Of a DNA stretch of 43,182 nucleotides, positions 3,965-39,726 are shown one piece after another. The notes under the pieces are model-generated. The model searched no databases. It was given only the letters and a program-made list of their open reading frames with translations, and was not told the origin of the DNA. Source of the stretch: Verrucomicrobiota bacterium (GTDB lineage Bacteria > Verrucomicrobiota > Kiritimatiellia > Kiritimatiellales > Pontiellaceae); NCBI GenBank assembly GCA_024279685.1, contig JAJRRI010000076.1:1-43182 (forward strand). The letters run 5' to 3'. The position numbers and the translations under genes are program-made. Position 1 is the stretch's first letter. Each line of letters begins with the position of its first letter.

Positions 3965-4960
3965 ATGGAACCGACCCGCACAGTTTCAATTATTGGAACC
4001 GGATCGTATGTGCCTGAAAAGGTACTCACGAACCAAGACCTCGCCAAAATCGTCGACACTTCCGACGAATGGATTCATTCCCGCACGGGGATGCGCGAGC
4101 GGCATATCGCCGCCGCCGATCAGGCGACCTCAGACTTGGGTACGGAAGCCGCCAAAGCGGCGCTGGCCGATGCTGGAATTGACGCCGAAGAAATCGACCT
4201 GCTCTTCGTTGCCACCCTTTCTCCCGATATGTTTTTCCCGAGCACCGCCTGTTTTGTTCAAGATAAAATCGGGGCTAAAAATGCTTTTTGCTATGACCTC
4301 GGCGCGGCTTGCTCAGGATTTTTATACTCCCTCGAGACCGCCAAAAATCAGATTGCTTGCGGTGCCGCAAAAACCGCCCTCGTAATTGGCGCGGAAAAAA
4401 TGAGCACCTTTATCGATTGGGAAGACCGATCCACCTGCATCCTGTTTGGCGACGGTGCAGGAGCGGCGGTTATACAGGCCGGGGGCGAAGGCCGCGGAAT
4501 TATGCAGGCGGCGATGGGGTCCGATGGATCACTGGCGAACCTACTCTGGACGCCGGGCGGCGGAAGCCGCAATCCCATTTCGCACGAGATGATCGACCAG
4601 CGTCAGCACTATTTAAAGATGCAGGGGCGGGAGGTCTTCAAGCATGCCGTCGTTCGCATGGCCGAGGCCGTGAATCAGGCGCTGGAAAAAAATAACCTCC
4701 GAGCTGACGAGATCAAATGTTTTATTCCGCATCAGGCCAATATTCGAATTATTGATGCGATTGTTAAGCGATTGGGCATTGCGGGGCGGGTCTATACGAA
4801 TGTTGAAAAATATGCTAACACCTCCTCCGCCGCGCTGGCGATTGCGATGGATGAAGCCGCTAAGGATGGAACCATCCAGCAGGGCGACTTGGTTGCATTG
4901 ACCGTGTTTGGCGGTGGTTTTACTTGGGGTGCTAACGTATTGGAATGGAGTAAATCATGA
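3965..4960 (+). CDS. fabH: Beta-ketoacyl-ACP synthase III
   Basis: Cys motif DLGAACSGFLYSL, His motif IPHQANIRII, Asn motif YANTSSAALAIA. Confidence 0.95.
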   Translation: MEPTRTVSIIGTGSYVPEKVLTNQDLAKIVDTSDEWIHSRTGMRERHIAAADQATSDLGTEAAKAALADAGIDAEEIDLLFVATLSPDMFFPSTACFVQDKIGAKNAFCYDLGAACSGFLYSLETAKNQIACGAAKTALVIGAEKMSTFIDWEDRSTCILFGDGAGAAVIQAGGEGRGIMQAAMGSDGSLANLLWTPGGGSRNPISHEMIDQRQHYLKMQGREVFKHAVVRMAEAVNQALEKNNLRADEIKCFIPHQANIRIIDAIVKRLGIAGRVYTNVEKYANTSSAALAIAMDEAAKDGTIQQGDLVALTVFGGGFTWGANVLEWSKS

Positions 4961-28916: not shown

Positions 28917-30080
28917 CTAATGTCCGTGTCCGGCATGAGGATCCATGCCACTGGTGATCATCTCAGCCTTCAAGGAAAACGACCCTTGTGCGACATATTC
29001 TTCGCCCGCTTCGAGGCCTTGCACGATCTCGACAAAATGGGGTTCGCCGATCCCAACTTTGACCTCCCGGCTTTCAAAGCCCGTTTCAGAAGGCACAAAA
29101 ACTAACCACTCTCCATCCACTTTTTGTACCGCGTTGCGCTCAATACGCACCGGCACTGAGGCGGATCCGGTCATGATTCGGGCTCGTACAAAGGCGCCCG
29201 GCGCGAAGTCATCATCGACTCCATCGAGGATGCACCGTGCCGTAAAGGTACGCGTTTCCTCGGAAATAAGCGGGCTCACGAATTTGATGGTGCCCGAGGC
29301 GGTATGTCCATCGTGGGCAATGAAATCTACCTACATGCCTTTGCGGATAACGTGCATGAAGCGCGGGAAAATACTAATATCCGCCCAGACGGTTGAAAGG
29401 TTGGCCACCTCAAATAGCACCTTATCTTCTCCTGCGGCCTCGCCGGTGGAAATAAAACGGGTGACAATGACGCCATCCAACGGAGCCGTTACGCTGTAGA
29501 CGGCGAGGGTGGCTCTGTTTTCAAGCGAAGCGAGGAGATCCCCCTTTTTTACTTCATCGCCAATTTCCACAAAAACCTCCCGCACCACGCTCGAATAGCG
29601 CGGCGAAATAGCGGCCGACCGGTCGCGGTTTAAACGAATTTCAGCGGGTAATATGACCGACGTCGAAATCGACCCCGCGCTCGCCGTGCCCAGCTTTAGA
29701 TCCATTTTTTGTATAATCTCCGGCGAAAGATAAATGGCCCCGCCGCCTTCATCGCCATGATCATGCCCCGCGTGATCGTCGTGTCCATCCGAGCCATGGT
29801 CGTGCCCCGCGTGGTTGTCGTGTTCTGCATGATCATGACCCTCATGCGCGGCATGGTCGTCATGTTTTTCCGCAACGGGGTCATGGCCGTGGTGTTCCAG
29901 CTTCTTTTGCTCCATTTCTTTTTCGAGTCCTGCCAAACTAGGTAGGGTATATTTTTCCCCGGTGGCCTGTTGTTCGAGGCAGGTCGGGCAGTCGCAGGTT
30001 GTTTCTCCCGCGTGGTTGTGTTGTGCAAATGTACTGAGGGCAAAGCAGAGGCTTCCGAGTATCCAGATTGATTTTTTCAT
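28917..30080 (-). pseudogene. RND efflux periplasmic adaptor, copy 2, split by an in-frame TAG at 29331-29333
   Basis: 29331-30080 ends ...VIRKGM-TAG; same frame continues VDFIAHDGHTASGTIKFVSPLISEETRTFTAR through 28917. Includes His-rich N-terminal segment. Confidence 0.85.
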
Positions 30081-32089: not shown

Positions 32090-32431
32090 TTAACCTACGG
32101 CTTCGGTGCCTTTCTCGCCGGTGCGGATGCGGATGCATTCGGGCAGGTCGAGCACGAAGATCTTGCCGTCGCCAATCTTGCCGGTGCGGGCTCCTTTAAT
32201 GATGGCGTCGGTGGTGGTTTCGACGTATTCGTCGTTGATGGCGATTTCTAGGCGAACCTTTTTCAGGAGATTCACTTCGATGTCGGCACCGCGATAGGTT
32301 TCATGGAAACCCTTTTGCTGGCCGCACCCCATCGCGTTGGTGATGGAGAGCTTGTAGACTTCGATCTCATAGAGGGCTTGTTTTACCTCGTTGAGCGCTT
32401 CGGGCTGTATGTATGCAATAATCAATTTCAT
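32090..32431 (-). CDS. glnK: P-II family nitrogen regulator
   Basis: [30 protein letters not shown]-loop region; [13 protein letters not shown]; adjacent to amtB. Confidence 0.92.
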
Positions 32432-32449
32432 GATAAGTTCCTTTACTGG

Positions 32450-33775
32450 TTAGACGTTCGTGAAGAACTGGAATCCATGATAGGCTTCCTGACCATGTTC
32501 GCCCAAGTCGAGGCCTTTCATTTCTTCCTCTTTGCTTACGCGGATGCCGACGGTTTTCTTCAAGATGTAGAAGATGAATAGGGCCGTAGGGAAACAAACG
32601 GCGGCGTAGGAAACAATACCGATAACCTGAGGCATCAGGGTGTGGTCCGGGCTGACCGCCACGAACAGCGTTCCAATAATACCGCACACTAGGTGGACGG
32701 TGGTGGCTCCGACGGGGTCGTCGAGCTTCATGCGATCGAAGGCCATAACGGAAATCACAGCCACCGCGCCGCAGACTAGGCCAATGACCACAGCCCAAGG
32801 AACAGAGACTACGTCCGCGCCGGCGGTGATGCCCACGAGTCCAGCCAAGCAGCCGTTCAGAACCATGGTCAAGTCGGGCTGCTTCTGGATGGTCCAGGAA
32901 GCCGTCATGGAACCGATGATGCCGGCCGCAGCGGCCAGACACGTCGTAACGAGCACGTAAGATACCGCTCCGGGATCGGCAGAAAGTACGGAGCCGCCGT
33001 TAAAGCCGAACCAGCCTAACCACAGCAGGAATGCGCCGATGGTCAGTAGCGGCATGTTGTGGCCCATGATGGCCTTGACTTGCCCGTTAACATATTTGCC
33101 AATACGCGGGCCGATCACGATGATACCGGCGAGTGCGCCCCAGCCGCCGACAGAGTGAACTAGAGTGGAACCAGCAAAGTCGTAGAAACCTTGGGCATCT
33201 AACCAACCGCCGCCCCATTTCCAGGACCCCACGAAGGGATAGACAATTCCCACATAGATCGTGCAGAAAATCAAAAACGGCCCGAGCTTAACGCGCTCCG
33301 CTACCGCACCAGAAACAATCGTGGCGGCGGTGGCGGCGAACATGCCTTGGAACAGGAAGTCGGTCCAATAGGAATATTGGCCATCCGCATAGTCGATCAG
33401 GCCAGCGGCGCCTTCTGGAGCGGCTATTCCAAATCCAGCAAACGCAAAGATTCCTGCGGAGCCTTCCGCGAATCCCGGATACATGAGGTTAAAGCCCATC
33501 AGCGCATAGGTCAGCAGGCCGATTGCGACAATCGCGGTGTTCTTGAACAAGATGTTAACCGTGTTCTTGGCGCGGGTCAGTCCGGTTTCCACCATGGCAA
33601 AACCGAGGTGCATAATGAATACGAGGAAAATGGAGACCATCATCCACGTATTGTTGACGGTGAACATAACGTCCGCCGCCGTGATTGCGGGGATTTCCTC
33701 CGCAAAAGTGGCCATGGGCAGCGCCAAGGCACACAGCGCGAACAGCCGCGCGAATGTTTTCTTTGTACAATGCAT
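32450..33775 (-). CDS. amtB: Ammonium transporter
   Basis: Amt motifs FAGSTLVHSVGGWGALAG and GWFGFNGGS; start at MHCTKKTFARLF with signal peptide (33775). Confidence 0.95.
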   Translation of the reverse strand: MHCTKKTFARLFALCALALPMATFAEEIPAITAADVMFTVNNTWMMVSIFLVFIMHLGFAMVETGLTRAKNTVNILFKNTAIVAIGLLTYALMGFNLMYPGFAEGSAGIFAFAGFGIAAPEGAAGLIDYADGQYSYWTDFLFQGMFAATAATIVSGAVAERVKLGPFLIFCTIYVGIVYPFVGSWKWGGGWLDAQGFYDFAGSTLVHSVGGWGALAGIIVIGPRIGKYVNGQVKAIMGHNMPLLTIGAFLLWLGWFGFNGGSVLSADPGAVSYVLVTTCLAAAAGIIGSMTASWTIQKQPDLTMVLNGCLAGLVGITAGADVVSVPWAVVIGLVCGAVAVISVMAFDRMKLDDPVGATTVHLVCGIIGTLFVAVSPDHTLMPQVIGIVSYAAVCFPTALFIFYILKKTVGIRVSKEEEMKGLDLGEHGQEAYHGFQFFTNV

Positions 33776-33994
33776 GTTGCATTCTCCTCTATTAGTTACA
33801 CAAATATCGTCCAAACCCCTATGGCTGGAATGAACGCCTTTTCGCAGGAGGTGTGCCAAGGATAGAGTCGATCTGCAAGGTGCTTTAGGGCAAGTAGTAA
33901 TGTAAACACGAAGAAGGGCGCGTAATTCCTTTATAGGACATATTTGTCTCACAAAGGAATAGATATACATTTTTGAGGTTTATAAAAGGCGGGG

Positions 33995-36283
33995 CTAAAT
34001 CGCTTGTTCCGCACGAAGGTTATGGGCGTCCAAAAACGCTTCAACCTCGCTGATTCGGCCCAGTTTAAGCATGGATTCAGCAATTTCTTCAGCTTCCTCG
34101 AGCGAGTAGGCCTGCACGAGCCGCTGGACGGTCGGTGTATTGATGCTGTCGATGCTGAACTTTCTGAGGCCAATACCCATGAGGAACGGGAGCATGCGCG
34201 GGTCGGCAGAAAGATCGCCGCAGATCGAAATATCTTTTTCGTGTATTCGGGCGGCGGCAACAATCCGGTTAATGGAGCGCAGCACGGCGGGGTGGTGCGC
34301 CCGGTAGAGGTTGGAAACCTGTTCGTTGGTTCGGTCGACCGCCAGCATGTACTGAATTAGATCGTTGGACCCGATCGAGAGGAAATCGGCTTCCTGTGCC
34401 AACTCGACCGCGACTTCGACCGCCGAGGGAAGCTCCATCATAACGCCGAGCTGGGTGTTGCGGCTGAAAGGTTGTCCTGCCGCTTCCAGCTCGTTCATGC
34501 ACTCGTGGGCAATGGTCCGCGCCTCGATAAAATCGTCTACCGAAGCAATCAGCGGGAACATGATCCGCGTGTTGCCCGCCGCTCCGGCACGCAGGAAGGC
34601 GCGCAGTTGCTGGCAGAAGATATCCTTGTTCTGCAGCGAAAACCGAATGGCCCGCATGCCGAGGAAGGGGTTGGCTTCGTGTACGTTCGAGTAGTAGGAA
34701 AGCATCTTGTCCCCGCCGATATCGAGCGTGCGGAAGGTGACACTTTTGCCCTCCATCTGGTCGACGAGTTTCTGGTAGATGACGTACTGCTCCTCTTCGC
34801 TAGGAAAATCGTTGCGGACAATGAAGGGGAATTCGGAGCGGTATAGACCCACGCCCTCGGCCTTAAATTTGCGGGCCGGCTTGAGGTCGCTGAGCAAGTT
34901 AATATTGGCGTGGATATAGATCCGCTCGCCGCACTTGGTGCGGGACTTTTCTTTCACATGGGCGGCATTGTGCGCCGCCTGCCACGCCTCGTCGTGGTCG
35001 ACATATTTTGCATAGACCGCTTCGCTGGGCTGTAGATAGACCAGGCCTTGCTCGGCATCCATCAGCATTTCTTCGCCCTCGACAATACCGTCAACCAGCT
35101 CGCGGCCAAGGGCCACCATCGGAATGCCCAAGGAGCGGCAGATGATGGCGTTGTGTGAGGTTACCCCGCTACTGACAATGAAACCTTCCACATTTTCGGC
35201 CGAAAGTTTCAAGATATCAGATGGCAGCAGTTCGTGGGCAATAATGATCTGTCCGCGGTAGTCGCTTGAGACGGATTTTTCATTCAGCAGGTTACGTGTT
35301 AGGCGGTTGCCTAGGTCTTTAACATCCAACACCTTTTCGCGGATTAGGGGCATTTTGCTGTTGGAAAAAATTTCGACATATTCGTTCACCACGGTCGAGA
35401 TCGCTTGGAGAGCGGGAGTGCCGGTTTGAATCAGGCCCGAAATACGCCCCGTAAACTGCTCATCTTCGAGGATGAGCAGGTGTGCGCTGAAAATCAAGAT
35501 GGCCACATCGGCCAGCTCCTCGCCGGTCTGTCGCTGGAGCTGGTTGATCTGCTGAGTCGTCTGTTCGAGTGCTTCTTTAAAGTCCTCGATCGTATGGGGT
35601 TTGGCCGCGGGGTCGGGGAGAGGACAACGTTCATGCTGTCCGGCACCCAGCGTTAAGGCTTGGCCTTTCGCGGTTCCGGAGCTCGCAGAGCGACCCCGGA
35701 GGATGCTTTGGCGGATGGCCTTTTTCGTCGGGGAAGTTATTTCTTTCGGAGCGGTGAATGTTTCGCGAGCCTCGCTCAGGAGCTGCGCGTTTTCAATCGT
35801 CGTGGCCAGCTGGGCGGCAATGGCGCGCAACGCCTTCGTATCGTTGGAGCTAAAGTAGTTTTCCTCGCGCGCTTGCACCACCAGCGCACCGATGCGCCGC
35901 AACCCGCGCAAGATCGGCACCGCTAAAAAGGCATTGTATTGCTCTTCGTTGATTCCCGGAAAATGCTTATACGCCGAACTCTGCGAGGCCCGCCCCGTCG
36001 AGATAGCGCGCAACTCGCGCACCGCCTGCCCAGTAATACCTTCGCCCAGCTTCAATTTCACGCGGCCGATGGCTTCCGCGCTCAAGCCCTGAGTGGCGCG
36101 CAGCGTCAGCTCCTCGTCTTCTTCGTCATAGATATAGATCGAACAGACATCGGCGTGCATGTGCTGACCCACCGAGACGACGACGCTCTGGAGCAGCTCC
36201 TTACGATCCCGGCCAGGTTCTGATTGGGAAATCAGCTCGGCAATATCGCATACTAAATCTACATTTCTCCTTTTCATAGGCAC
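33995..36283 (-). CDS. ptsP: Phosphoenolpyruvate-protein phosphotransferase with GAF domain (PtsP / EI-Ntr type)
   Basis: N-terminal GAF, SSGVTSHNAIICRSLGIPMVALG, RTLDIGGDK, SIGSNDLIQYMLAVDR. Confidence 0.92.
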   Translation of the reverse strand: MPMKRRNVDLVCDIAELISQSEPGRDRKELLQSVVVSVGQHMHADVCSIYIYDEEDEELTLRATQGLSAEAIGRVKLKLGEGITGQAVRELRAISTGRASQSSAYKHFPGINEEQYNAFLAVPILRGLRRIGALVVQAREENYFSSNDTKALRAIAAQLATTIENAQLLSEARETFTAPKEITSPTKKAIRQSILRGRSASSGTAKGQALTLGAGQHERCPLPDPAAKPHTIEDFKEALEQTTQQINQLQRQTGEELADVAILIFSAHLLILEDEQFTGRISGLIQTGTPALQAISTVVNEYVEIFSNSKMPLIREKVLDVKDLGNRLTRNLLNEKSVSSDYRGQIIIAHELLPSDILKLSAENVEGFIVSSGVTSHNAIICRSLGIPMVALGRELVDGIVEGEEMLMDAEQGLVYLQPSEAVYAKYVDHDEAWQAAHNAAHVKEKSRTKCGERIYIHANINLLSDLKPARKFKAEGVGLYRSEFPFIVRNDFPSEEEQYVIYQKLVDQMEGKSVTFRTLDIGGDKMLSYYSNVHEANPFLGMRAIRFSLQNKDIFCQQLRAFLRAGAAGNTRIMFPLIASVDDFIEARTIAHECMNELEAAGQPFSRNTQLGVMMELPSAVEVAVELAQEADFLSIGSNDLIQYMLAVDRTNEQVSNLYRAHHPAVLRSINRIVAAARIHEKDISICGDLSADPRMLPFLMGIGLRKFSIDSINTPTVQRLVQAYSLEEAEEIAESMLKLGRISEVEAFLDAHNLRAEQAI

Positions 36284-36399: not shown

Positions 36400-39300
36400 A
36401 TGATGAACACACCGACTACGGAAAATCTGCTCGAAATCTACCGCCCGATGGTGGCCTCGCGCTACACCGATCACCTTCAAGCGGACGCTGCCCAACGCGG
36501 AGAGGTCTTTTTCTACGTCCCCTCATCCGGTCACGAAGCCGCCGCCGCCCTCGCGCCGCACCTCATCGAGGCCGATTGGTTACACCTCCACTACCGCGAC
36601 CGCGCGCTCGCCTACGCCCGCGGCGTCACCTTCGAAACCGCCTTCTACGGCCTCTTTGGCAAGGCGGAATCCTGCTCTGCCGGTCGCCGTATGCCCGGTT
36701 TTCCCTGCGACCAGGCGCTCCATATTATGAGCACCCCGACGCTCGTCGGCCCTAACGTACTTCAGGCGGTAGGCGTAGCCACCACCCTTAAAGACGCCGC
36801 CGAAAGCCCCTTCGTACTCGTCTCTCTCGGCGACGGAGCCACCCAGCAGGGCGACTTCTACGAAGCCGTCGCGGAAGCCGTCCGCGCCAACCTGCCCGTG
36901 CTCTTTCTGGTCGAAGACAATCGCTTTGCGCTCTCCACCCCAACCCAAGGCAACACCTTCTACTCCCTGCCCGATCGCGAAGTAGACACCTTCTACGGCC
37001 TGCCCATCCATCGGGTCGACGGCTCCGATGCTTCCGCCGCCTACGAAAAATTTGGCGAGGTAGTTTCCAGCTTACGAGCCACCCGAGGCCCGCAGATCGT
37101 CGTCTTTAAGGTCGAACGGCTCACCAGTCATACCAACGCCGACGACCAAACCGTTTATCGAACCGAAGCCGATCTCCAGCACGCGATGGAAAATGCCGAC
37201 CCTTGCGCCAACCTACGGGTTCAGCTTCTTAACACCGGCGTCGCCGAAGAGCAGCTCAAAGCCATCGAAAATGAAGTGCAGGAACAGATCGACGCCGCTT
37301 TCCACACCGCCCGCAAAGGCACCATGCCCAAAGCCGTACTGACCGCCAAGAAAGCGCTGCCCGAACCCCGCGCCGAATATCTCGGCACCGCAGACCACCG
37401 CGAACTCAGCATGCTCGAAGCCATGCGCGAAACCCTCAAGGCGCGGCTCGCCAAAGATCCAAAGACCACATTACTCGGCCAAGACATCGAAGATCCCAAA
37501 GGCGATGTCTTCGGCCTCACCCGCGGCCTCAGCCAAGAATTCCCTACGCAGATCAGTAATGCCGCACTCGCCGAAGACACCATCCTCGGCGTCTCCACCG
37601 GACAAGCGCTCGCCGGCGGCCATCCCATTGCCTTCATGCAGTTTTCCGACTTCCTGCCCGTGGCCTACAGCCACATCCACTCCGAAATCGGCGCCATGTA
37701 TTGGCGCACCAACGGCCAGTGGGAATCACCCGTTCTGATTATGTCCATCTCCGGCGGCTACCGCCCCGGACTTGGCCCCTACCACGCCCAGACGATGGAA
37801 TCGATCTGCGCGCACGTTCCCGGTGTTGATGTCTTTATGCCCTCCACCGCCGCCGATGCCGCTGGCCTGCTCAACGCCATTGCCGAATCGGGCCGACCCT
37901 CCGTCTTCTTTTTTCCCAAGAGCCTGATTAACGATCGATCGAACACCACCTCCGCCGATGTGGAAAAGCAGTATGTCCCCATCGGTAAAGCGCGGATCGC
38001 CCGCACCGGTAGCGACCTAACCCTCGTGGGATGGGGCGGAACCATGCCCATCTGCGAGCGCACCGCCGAAGCCCTCGCTGAAATAGGAATCAACGCCGAG
38101 GTCATCGACCTGCGCACCATTTTCCCGTGGGACGAAGAAACCATTCTCGCCTCCGCCCAAAAGACCGGTAAACTCATCATCGTCCACGAAGACAACCAGA
38201 CGTGCGGCATGGGCGCCGAGATCTCCGCCACCATCGCCGAAGCCGCGATGGGCGCCGTGCAGATCGCCCGCGTCACCCGCCCCGATACCTACATTCCGTA
38301 CGACTACGCCTGCCAGATCGAGGTCCTTCCCTCCTTCAAGCGCACGCTCACCACCTGCTGCAAAATGCTCGAAATCGACCTACGCTGGAACAAGCCCATC
38401 GAAGACGAAACCGGCATCGTCACCGTCAAAGCCATCGGCTCCAGCCCGTCCGACGAAACCATCACCATCACGAGCCTGTCCGTGGCCGTCGGCGATGCCA
38501 TCGCAGAAGGCGACCTACTCGTTTCCGTTGAAGCCGACAAAGCCTCGATGGACATCACCGCTCCCGTCAGCGGAACCCTCATCGAGCTCCTGGCCGAAGA
38601 GGGGGATGTCCTCACCGTCGGCACGCCCATGCTTAAAATTTCCTCCGACGAAGCCGCCCAGCTCAAACCCCTCATCCAAGAAGATCCCGGCACCCCCATC
38701 ATGGAAAGAAAGCGAGTTGCGCAAGCGAACGCTCCCCAAGCCCCAAGCCTAAAGCCCAAAGCCTCCATCTACATCTCCAACATCGCCACCGTCTTCGGTT
38801 CGCGCCATTTGAGCAACGAGGAGCTGCTGCAAGGCCACGGGGAATGGGATTCCGAAGCCATTCGAAAACGCACCGGCATCGAGAATCGCTACTGGATCGA
38901 CGGCGATGAAAACGTACTAACGCTCGCCGTGCAAGCCACCCGCGACCTGCTCGAAAAGGAAAATCTCCATATCTCCGACATCGGAGCCATCATTTGCTCC
39001 ACCGGCACGCCACTAGCGATGACTCCCTCACTCGCGTGCTCCGTCCTGCACGAACTCAGCCCCGGCAAGGGCGAGGTCCTCATGCAAGCGCACGATGTCA
39101 ACGCCGCTTGCTCGGGCTATATGTACGCCCTGCAATCCGCCTATGACTTCCTCACCAACGCGCCCGACAAAAAGGTCCTCGTCATTACTGCCGAAACCCT
39201 CTCGCCGATGGTGAACCACAACGACCAGAAAACGCTAGCCCTCTTTGGCGACGCCGCCACCGCCTCCCTCGTCAGCTGCGAGCAACGCCCCGGCGACATC

Positions 39301-39726
39301 GGCGTGAAGCTCAATCGCCCCTTTCTTTCCGCCACCGGCGTCGAAGAAAAGGTGCTCTACGTGCCCAACATGGGCAGCGGCGAAGTCATCGAAATGGAGG
39401 GTTTAACCGTCTTCAAGCTCGCCGTGCGCAAGATGATCGATGTGCTCGACAGCGCCTGCACCGAGCGCGGCATCACCGTCAATCAACTCGACAAAATCGT
39501 TCCGCACCAAGCCAACGAACGCATCATCGAAGCCATCCGCAAAACCATCAAATGCCCGCCCGAAAAAATGTTCAACCACATCCGTACATACGGTAACACC
39601 TCTTCTAATACCATCCCCATCGCCCTCACCGAGCTCATGCCCGAGATCGCCCCCGAAGCCCTCATCGGCCTCACCGCCTTCGGCGGCGGCTTCACCTTCG
39701 GCGCCGCCGTCATCGAAAAGATATAG
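36400..39726 (+). CDS. Fusion protein: 2-oxoacid dehydrogenase E1alpha + E1beta + lipoyl domain + beta-ketoacyl-ACP synthase III
   Basis: GDGATQQGDFYEAVAEAVRANLPVLFLVEDNRFALSTP (ThDP, E1alpha); GLGPYHAQTMESICAHVPG (E1beta); EADKASMDITAPVSGTL (lipoyl, Lys714); DVNAACSGYMYAL (Cys904), VPHQANERII (His1036), YGNTSSNTIPIAL (Asn1066). Confidence 0.92.
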   Translation: MMNTPTTENLLEIYRPMVASRYTDHLQADAAQRGEVFFYVPSSGHEAAAALAPHLIEADWLHLHYRDRALAYARGVTFETAFYGLFGKAESCSAGRRMPGFPCDQALHIMSTPTLVGPNVLQAVGVATTLKDAAESPFVLVSLGDGATQQGDFYEAVAEAVRANLPVLFLVEDNRFALSTPTQGNTFYSLPDREVDTFYGLPIHRVDGSDASAAYEKFGEVVSSLRATRGPQIVVFKVERLTSHTNADDQTVYRTEADLQHAMENADPCANLRVQLLNTGVAEEQLKAIENEVQEQIDAAFHTARKGTMPKAVLTAKKALPEPRAEYLGTADHRELSMLEAMRETLKARLAKDPKTTLLGQDIEDPKGDVFGLTRGLSQEFPTQISNAALAEDTILGVSTGQALAGGHPIAFMQFSDFLPVAYSHIHSEIGAMYWRTNGQWESPVLIMSISGGYRPGLGPYHAQTMESICAHVPGVDVFMPSTAADAAGLLNAIAESGRPSVFFFPKSLINDRSNTTSADVEKQYVPIGKARIARTGSDLTLVGWGGTMPICERTAEALAEIGINAEVIDLRTIFPWDEETILASAQKTGKLIIVHEDNQTCGMGAEISATIAEAAMGAVQIARVTRPDTYIPYDYACQIEVLPSFKRTLTTCCKMLEIDLRWNKPIEDETGIVTVKAIGSSPSDETITITSLSVAVGDAIAEGDLLVSVEADKASMDITAPVSGTLIELLAEEGDVLTVGTPMLKISSDEAAQLKPLIQEDPGTPIMERKRVAQANAPQAPSLKPKASIYISNIATVFGSRHLSNEELLQGHGEWDSEAIRKRTGIENRYWIDGDENVLTLAVQATRDLLEKENLHISDIGAIICSTGTPLAMTPSLACSVLHELSPGKGEVLMQAHDVNAACSGYMYALQSAYDFLTNAPDKKVLVITAETLSPMVNHNDQKTLALFGDAATASLVSCEQRPGDIGVKLNRPFLSATGVEEKVLYVPNMGSGEVIEMEGLTVFKLAVRKMIDVLDSACTERGITVNQLDKIVPHQANERIIEAIRKTIKCPPEKMFNHIRTYGNTSSNTIPIALTELMPEIAPEALIGLTAFGGGFTFGAAVIEKI

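Follow-up and report, generated by a model that had tools for sequence, protein, structure and literature searches.

Bacteria are known to make branched fatty acid primers with the BCKDH/Bkd complex and a separate FabH. Chains in which an E1 is joined to an acyl-transfer module are also familiar, the actinobacterial OdhA/KGD proteins being E1-E2 fusions that make succinyl-CoA, and an NRPS-linked fused E1 loads glycolyl units from ketose phosphates. Here we describe a gene of the Kiritimatiellota in which E1alpha, E1beta, a lipoyl domain and a KAS III domain form one polypeptide. It lies in the window, the whole stretch of 43,182 nucleotides that was analysed, within a genome of 2.69 Mb (Table 1). 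With the BCKDH/Bkd and FabH route the fusion shares a BCKDH-type E1alpha-beta and a lipoyl carrier and, if it works as proposed below, KAS III condensation with malonyl-ACP and the overall outcome; it differs in being one polypeptide, in a chain that has no E2 or CoA step and in lacking the clamp for the CoA adenine. OdhA/KGD, which the predicted structure of the fusion also matches in Foldseek, resembles it in carrying E1 and an acyl-transfer module in one chain, whereas those proteins have a different E1 class, an E2 module, a succinyl-CoA product and no KAS III. No earlier description of the four-part architecture was found in the literature searched, most subscription journals lying outside that search; the component parts are of known kinds, while the combination and the lipoyl-to-ketosynthase transfer that it implies would be new.

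Table 1. Features of the window, with positions counted from its first nucleotide
Feature	Position	Strand	Evidence
Stand-alone canonical FabH; W32, R151 and F87 intact	3965..4960	+	PRK09352, 438.7 bits
Whole fusion gene, E1alpha-E1beta-lipoyl-KAS III, 1108 aa	36400..39726	+	ORF, Pfam; kept in 50 distinct homologues
E1alpha, PF00676, aa 15-311	36442..37332	+	Pfam, alignment
E1beta, PF02779 and PF02780, aa 335-637	37402..38310	+	Pfam, alignment, PDB match
Lipoyl domain, PF00364, aa 689-747; Lys714 in EADKAS, codon 38539-38541	38464..38640	+	Pfam, alignment
Lipoyl-to-KAS III linker, aa 750-788	38647..38763	+	Pfam, AlphaFold2
KAS III domain, aa 789-1108; Cys904-His1036-Asn1066	38764..39723	+	Pfam, alignment

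Architecture of the fusion protein

The reading frame runs for 1108 codons without an internal stop. The initial annotation had seen in it four modules in order with no E2 acyltransferase or E3 domain, and had proposed a domain search and a structure prediction as checks; both agree with it. Pfam places six domains in order, each far over its cut-off, namely E1_dh (whole-protein E 1.6e-44), Transket_pyr (aa 335-510), Transketolase_C (529-637), Biotin_lipoyl (3.8e-16), ACP_syn_III (899-965) and ACP_syn_III_C (1021-1106; 5.8e-25), and in NCBIfam aa 790-1106 score 268 bits, over the cut-off, as PRK09352, beta-ketoacyl-ACP synthase 3. Pfam detects neither an E2 catalytic nor an E3-binding domain (PF00198, PF02817) in the 1108-residue chain, and the linker leading to KAS III likewise yielded no E3-binding domain. 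As E2 and E3-binding domains are found neither in the chain nor in an adjoining gene, the locus does not encode a complete 2-oxoacid dehydrogenase complex. The AlphaFold2 monomer model is confident (mean pLDDT 88, pTM 0.67), in which aa 773-786 of the linker are predicted to be disordered. In Foldseek parts of the model match the branched-chain E1 beta of T. thermophilus and the FabH of Aquifex, E. coli and others, and the KAS III fold is recovered with a target TM of 0.91-0.92 against 2ebd.

The N-terminal half has the three domains, the ThDP motif (GDG at aa 144-146, followed by N174) and the catalytic His and Glu of a 2-oxoacid dehydrogenase E1 of the alpha2beta2 type. Its subtype is that of BCKDH: E1alpha carries the GRxMP insertion (GRRMP, aa 95-99), the best PDB matches are to T. 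thermophilus BCKDH, including the branched-chain E1beta, and the pocket residues F38, Y65 and M98 correspond to T. thermophilus F66, Y95 and M128. Two further positions differ from that enzyme, His131alpha being Phe or Met in most fusions and Y86beta being F. The substrate is likely to be specifically 2-oxoisovalerate. The adjoining lipoyl module has the lipoyl fold and a lysine in a DKA motif (K714) and is predicted to be lipoylated; LipA, LplA/LipB and dihydrolipoamide dehydrogenases (E3) are present.

Fifty distinct intact homologues, 45-89% identical, were found across Kiritimatiellae and a few other Verrucomicrobiota, and these full-length proteins were aligned after removal of identical copies. 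Throughout 44 aligned sequences Lys714, the ThDP residues G144, D145, G146 and N174, Glu392, His462, Cys904, His1036 and Asn1066 are invariant, as is His244 of the E1alpha loop; the lipoyl lysine and the Cys-His-Asn triad stand where they had first been placed by reading the DNA. The spacer between E1beta and the lipoyl domain is 17 residues in all 50 fusions, and 36-53 residues separate the end of the lipoyl domain from the start of KAS III.

The CoA site of the fused KAS III domain

In FabH the CoA adenine is stacked between Trp32 and Arg151, and Thr28 and Arg36 also touch CoA (PMC4606726). The fused KAS III domains were aligned with 14 stand-alone KAS III proteins, comprising E. coli FabH, the FabH encoded in the window and relatives, and E. 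coli numbering is used here. Both adenine-binding residues are lost from every one of the 50 fused domains, W32 giving way to A, D, E, G or K and R151 to Q, P, Y, F, A or T. The pair is kept in 13 of the 14 stand-alone proteins, including those of E. coli and of the window, and in B. subtilis FabHA and S. aureus FabH, both of which take branched acyl-CoA substrates. In the fusion of the window the replacements are A820 and Q943, and T875 stands at the acyl-pocket gate F87, a position that is Thr in 50/50 fused domains and mostly Phe in the stand-alone proteins. Phe87 narrows the acyl pocket of E. coli FabH, and Thr at this position goes with a wider pocket in mycobacterial FabH.

The Cys-His-Asn triad, R249 and N247 are present in all 50 fused domains, Lys or Arg occupies position 256 in 44 and position 214 in 41, and most ACP-docking positions are kept. 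R36, which contacts the CoA phosphates, is still Arg in 44 of the 50; the retention of R36 and N247 suggests that some pantetheine or CoA contacts remain, which malonyl-ACP or the lipoyl arm may make use of. A tryptophan one helical turn before the W32 position, W816, is conserved in 41 of the 50 fusions and could in principle stand in for W32. Taken as a whole, the domain resembles FabH (E. coli FabH, B. subtilis FabHA and FabHB) in fold, triad and Arg249, at about 30-36% identity, and differs from it in the loss of W32 and R151, in Thr for Phe at 87 and in its covalent lipoyl arm. In a tree the fused domains form one group apart from FabH, at a point where long branches meet. A separate stand-alone KAS III-like protein (L086, frame from 932, genome G040) also has neither W32 nor R151 (K and K); it carries Phe at the R249 position and sits on a very long branch.

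Distribution, genomic setting and relatives

Among 288 sampled genomes of the class, by our count 61 carry the fusion, whole or as fragments at contig ends, at no less than 45% identity. It is missing from just two sampled genomes of the genus to which the window belongs, both incomplete (84% and 72%), is present in all sampled genomes of a second family (f2), and also occurs in Pontiella desulfatans and in Pontiella sp. MAGs. Outside the class but within the phylum, six genomes have it at full length. Sampling covered the phylum Verrucomicrobiota, and the one broad contig scan used patterns drawn from one protein, which distant relatives would escape. None of 72,556 plasmid records covered 80% of the query. 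An assembly chimera, or absence from close relatives, had been named at the outset as grounds for discarding the annotation. The fusion recurs uninterrupted in dozens of independent genomes, which rules out the chimera, and neither concern holds: because it is widespread among the sampled genomes, the fusion is neither a chimera nor a local oddity.

Gene content was compared in six genomes, that of the window and five that are nearly closed. No BCKDH-type E1 besides the fusion is present in any of the six; a single further PF00676 protein, of 817-832 residues, occurs in four and none in the other two. Each encodes a canonical FabH as well as the fused KAS III, with a third, distant KAS III-like frame in one, and the separate canonical fabH that had been annotated in the window stands confirmed. 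This stand-alone FabH presumably serves the acetyl-CoA primer route. The idea of a genome devoid of E2 and E3 was rejected, both being present in separate complexes: the genome's two E2s lie on other contigs, one adjoining an AceE-type PDH gene and the other in the operon of the 817-residue E1, which is of a different type and adjoins an E2 and E3 of its own. That operon (L098:1045-7036, contig C81) encodes a fused E1alpha-beta with an adjoining E2, and an E3 that has an N-terminal lipoyl domain.

Comparison of neighbourhoods revealed no conserved operon partners of the fusion gene beyond close relatives. By eye, the gene is flanked in Pontiella by a GAF-PTS enzyme I and an ammonium transporter, and in another family by mre/rod-like cell-shape genes. 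In the window, upstream and on the opposite strand (32090-36283), a GAF-domain PTS enzyme I lies by ammonium-transporter-like and PII-like genes, and in several Pontiella genomes the enzyme I gene is again found next to the fusion. Further away, at 29331-30080, a short efflux-adaptor-like frame with a very His/Asp-rich stretch lies near outer-membrane and pump-like genes; this region is probably concerned with metal efflux.

The phylum scan also uncovered, in about 27 genomes outside the class (taken as Verrucomicrobiae), uninterrupted frames of about 1010-1140 residues, with a few longer, that match the fusion over E1alpha-E1beta(-lipoyl) only. One of these (L106, genome G300; about 1030 residues) comprises E1_dh, Transket_pyr, Transketolase_C, Biotin_lipoyl and then 2-oxoacid_dh, the E2 acyltransferase, with no E3-binding domain detected in it by Pfam; two more (L107 and L109, genomes G288 and G429) also end in E2 by eye. 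The usual E2 catalytic motif is DHRxxDG, and by eye all three have DHRxxNG at that site. In the E1 tree, which was midpoint-rooted for drawing, the KAS III fusions form one clade (100/100). This clade joins (100/100) the E2 fusions and two NRPS-adjoining E1alpha-beta proteins of Streptomyces in a group from which split BCKDH, acetoin and other E1s stand apart; L120, at first labelled an E2 fusion, falls outside this group. The single chains of Verrucomicrobiae share the E1alpha-E1beta-lipoyl order with the fusion and differ in ending in E2, with CoA as acceptor, rather than in KAS III, with a Cys as acceptor. Since the fusions group with E1alpha-E1beta-lipoyl-E2 proteins, KAS III would seem to occupy the place that a CoA acyltransferase holds in related chains. 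The simplest reading is that an E1-lipoyl chain may have changed its terminal acyl acceptor, in either direction, between a CoA-directed E2 and KAS III.

The two Streptomyces proteins are encoded on plasmids (L126:5944-7956 on NZ_CP061282.1; L127:4878-6911 on NZ_CP108424.1), directly before NRPS genes, and we take them to be NRPS-linked E1alpha-beta proteins with NapB-like loading. Neighbours of the former include aminodeoxychorismate synthase, chorismate mutase, prephenate dehydrogenase and ornithine cyclodeaminase and resemble a streptogramin-type cluster. What the two proteins have in common with the fusion is a fused E1alpha-beta that probably supplies a carrier-protein assembly line and not central metabolism; they differ in standing alone beside the NRPS without KAS III.

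A putative primer synthase and its alternatives

The mechanism that we infer for acyl transfer, substrate and the E3 step would begin with decarboxylation of a branched 2-oxoacid, most likely 2-oxoisovalerate, on the ThDP of E1alpha-beta. E1 would then reductively acylate lipoyl-Lys714 of its own chain or, within a dimer, that of the partner, to give isobutyryl-dihydrolipoyl, and the lipoyl arm would swing over the flexible linker and pass the acyl group to Cys904, replacing the acyl-CoA of ordinary FabH. Condensation with malonyl-ACP by KAS III would yield 4-methyl-3-oxopentanoyl-ACP, which would enter the fatty acid cycle and lead to even-numbered iso fatty acids; the dihydrolipoyl group would probably be reoxidised in trans by free dihydrolipoamide dehydrogenase (E3).

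The primer of even iso acids is isobutyryl, which derives from 2-oxoisovalerate, and that of straight acids is acetyl. The main acids of Pontiella desulfatans, P. sulfatireligans and P. agarivorans are C18:0, i-C12:0, i-C14:0 and i-C18:0, with i-C16:0 also a main acid in P. sulfatireligans; Tichowtungia aerotolerans has C18:0, i-C12:0, i-C18:0 and i-C16:0, K. glycovorans has i-C14:0 and C18:0 with i-C18:0, and odd iso or anteiso acids are absent from the main acids named (PMC7356697, PMC10880615). C18:0 together with even iso acids is the pattern expected from an isobutyryl primer. The cultured species can probably be paired with fusion-bearing genomes, and their two classes of primer would then match the two KAS III proteins. 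The even iso acids could alternatively derive from isobutyryl-CoA made by a 2-oxoacid:ferredoxin oxidoreductase.

Quite probably, then, the fusion would act as a self-contained branched-chain primer synthase, with the lipoyl arm delivering its acyl group directly to Cys904 and no CoA involved. In favour of such channelling, the fused domains have lost W32 and R151 and yet retain the triad and most ACP-docking positions. The initial annotation had already put forward a primer synthase for branched or unusual acids that bypasses E2 and free CoA, and the clamp loss, the relatives with E2 in the same position, the sole BCKDH-type E1 and the even iso lipids all point the same way. On balance we also favour the broader view that fatty acid synthesis may be started without acyl-CoA, a ketosynthase being primed by acyl-lipoyl of the same chain and KAS III having replaced the E2 module.

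Three other accounts are less likely than a branched-chain primer synthase of this kind. The KAS III domain might use free isobutyryl-CoA, the fusion merely tying expression or localisation together and the E2 of another complex passing acyl-lipoyl to CoA. Such an arrangement would suit the largely retained R36 and N247 equivalents and the occurrence of E2 proteins elsewhere in these genomes, but it sits poorly with the loss of W32 and R151 from every fused domain when even the branched-chain FabHs of B. subtilis and S. aureus keep them, and both E2s of the genome belong to the AceE-type PDH and the 817-residue E1 operon; we regard it as unlikely. The same mechanism might instead operate on pyruvate, an aryl or other 2-oxoacid or a ketose phosphate, and prime a minor lipid or secondary metabolite, as the NRPS-adjoining relatives in Streptomyces, with the glycolyl loading by an E1 of that kind, and the replacement of His131alpha would allow. 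A solitary gene without conserved neighbours past close relatives, conserved across whole families in the manner of a housekeeping gene, in hosts that have even iso lipids and no other BCKDH-type E1, makes that very unlikely. Least probable of the three is that KAS III serves as an acyltransferase, moving the acyl group from lipoyl to Cys to ACP so that isobutyryl-ACP primes FabF without condensation: some KAS III homologues are acyltransferases and the ACP-docking Arg (R249) is invariant, yet the Cys-His-Asn triad for decarboxylative condensation is intact in 50/50.

If the fusion is indeed a branched-chain primer synthase, it would lead from an amino-acid precursor to primers for branched fatty acids by one merged route that bypasses CoA, and the even-numbered iso lipids found throughout a lineage of little-studied anaerobes would be accounted for. 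Branched lipids could then be made with a single compact gene, and transfer from lipoyl to a ketosynthase would become tractable to test. The arrangement also suggests a simple evolutionary move: behind E1 and the lipoyl domain, one module that accepts the acyl group is exchanged for another.
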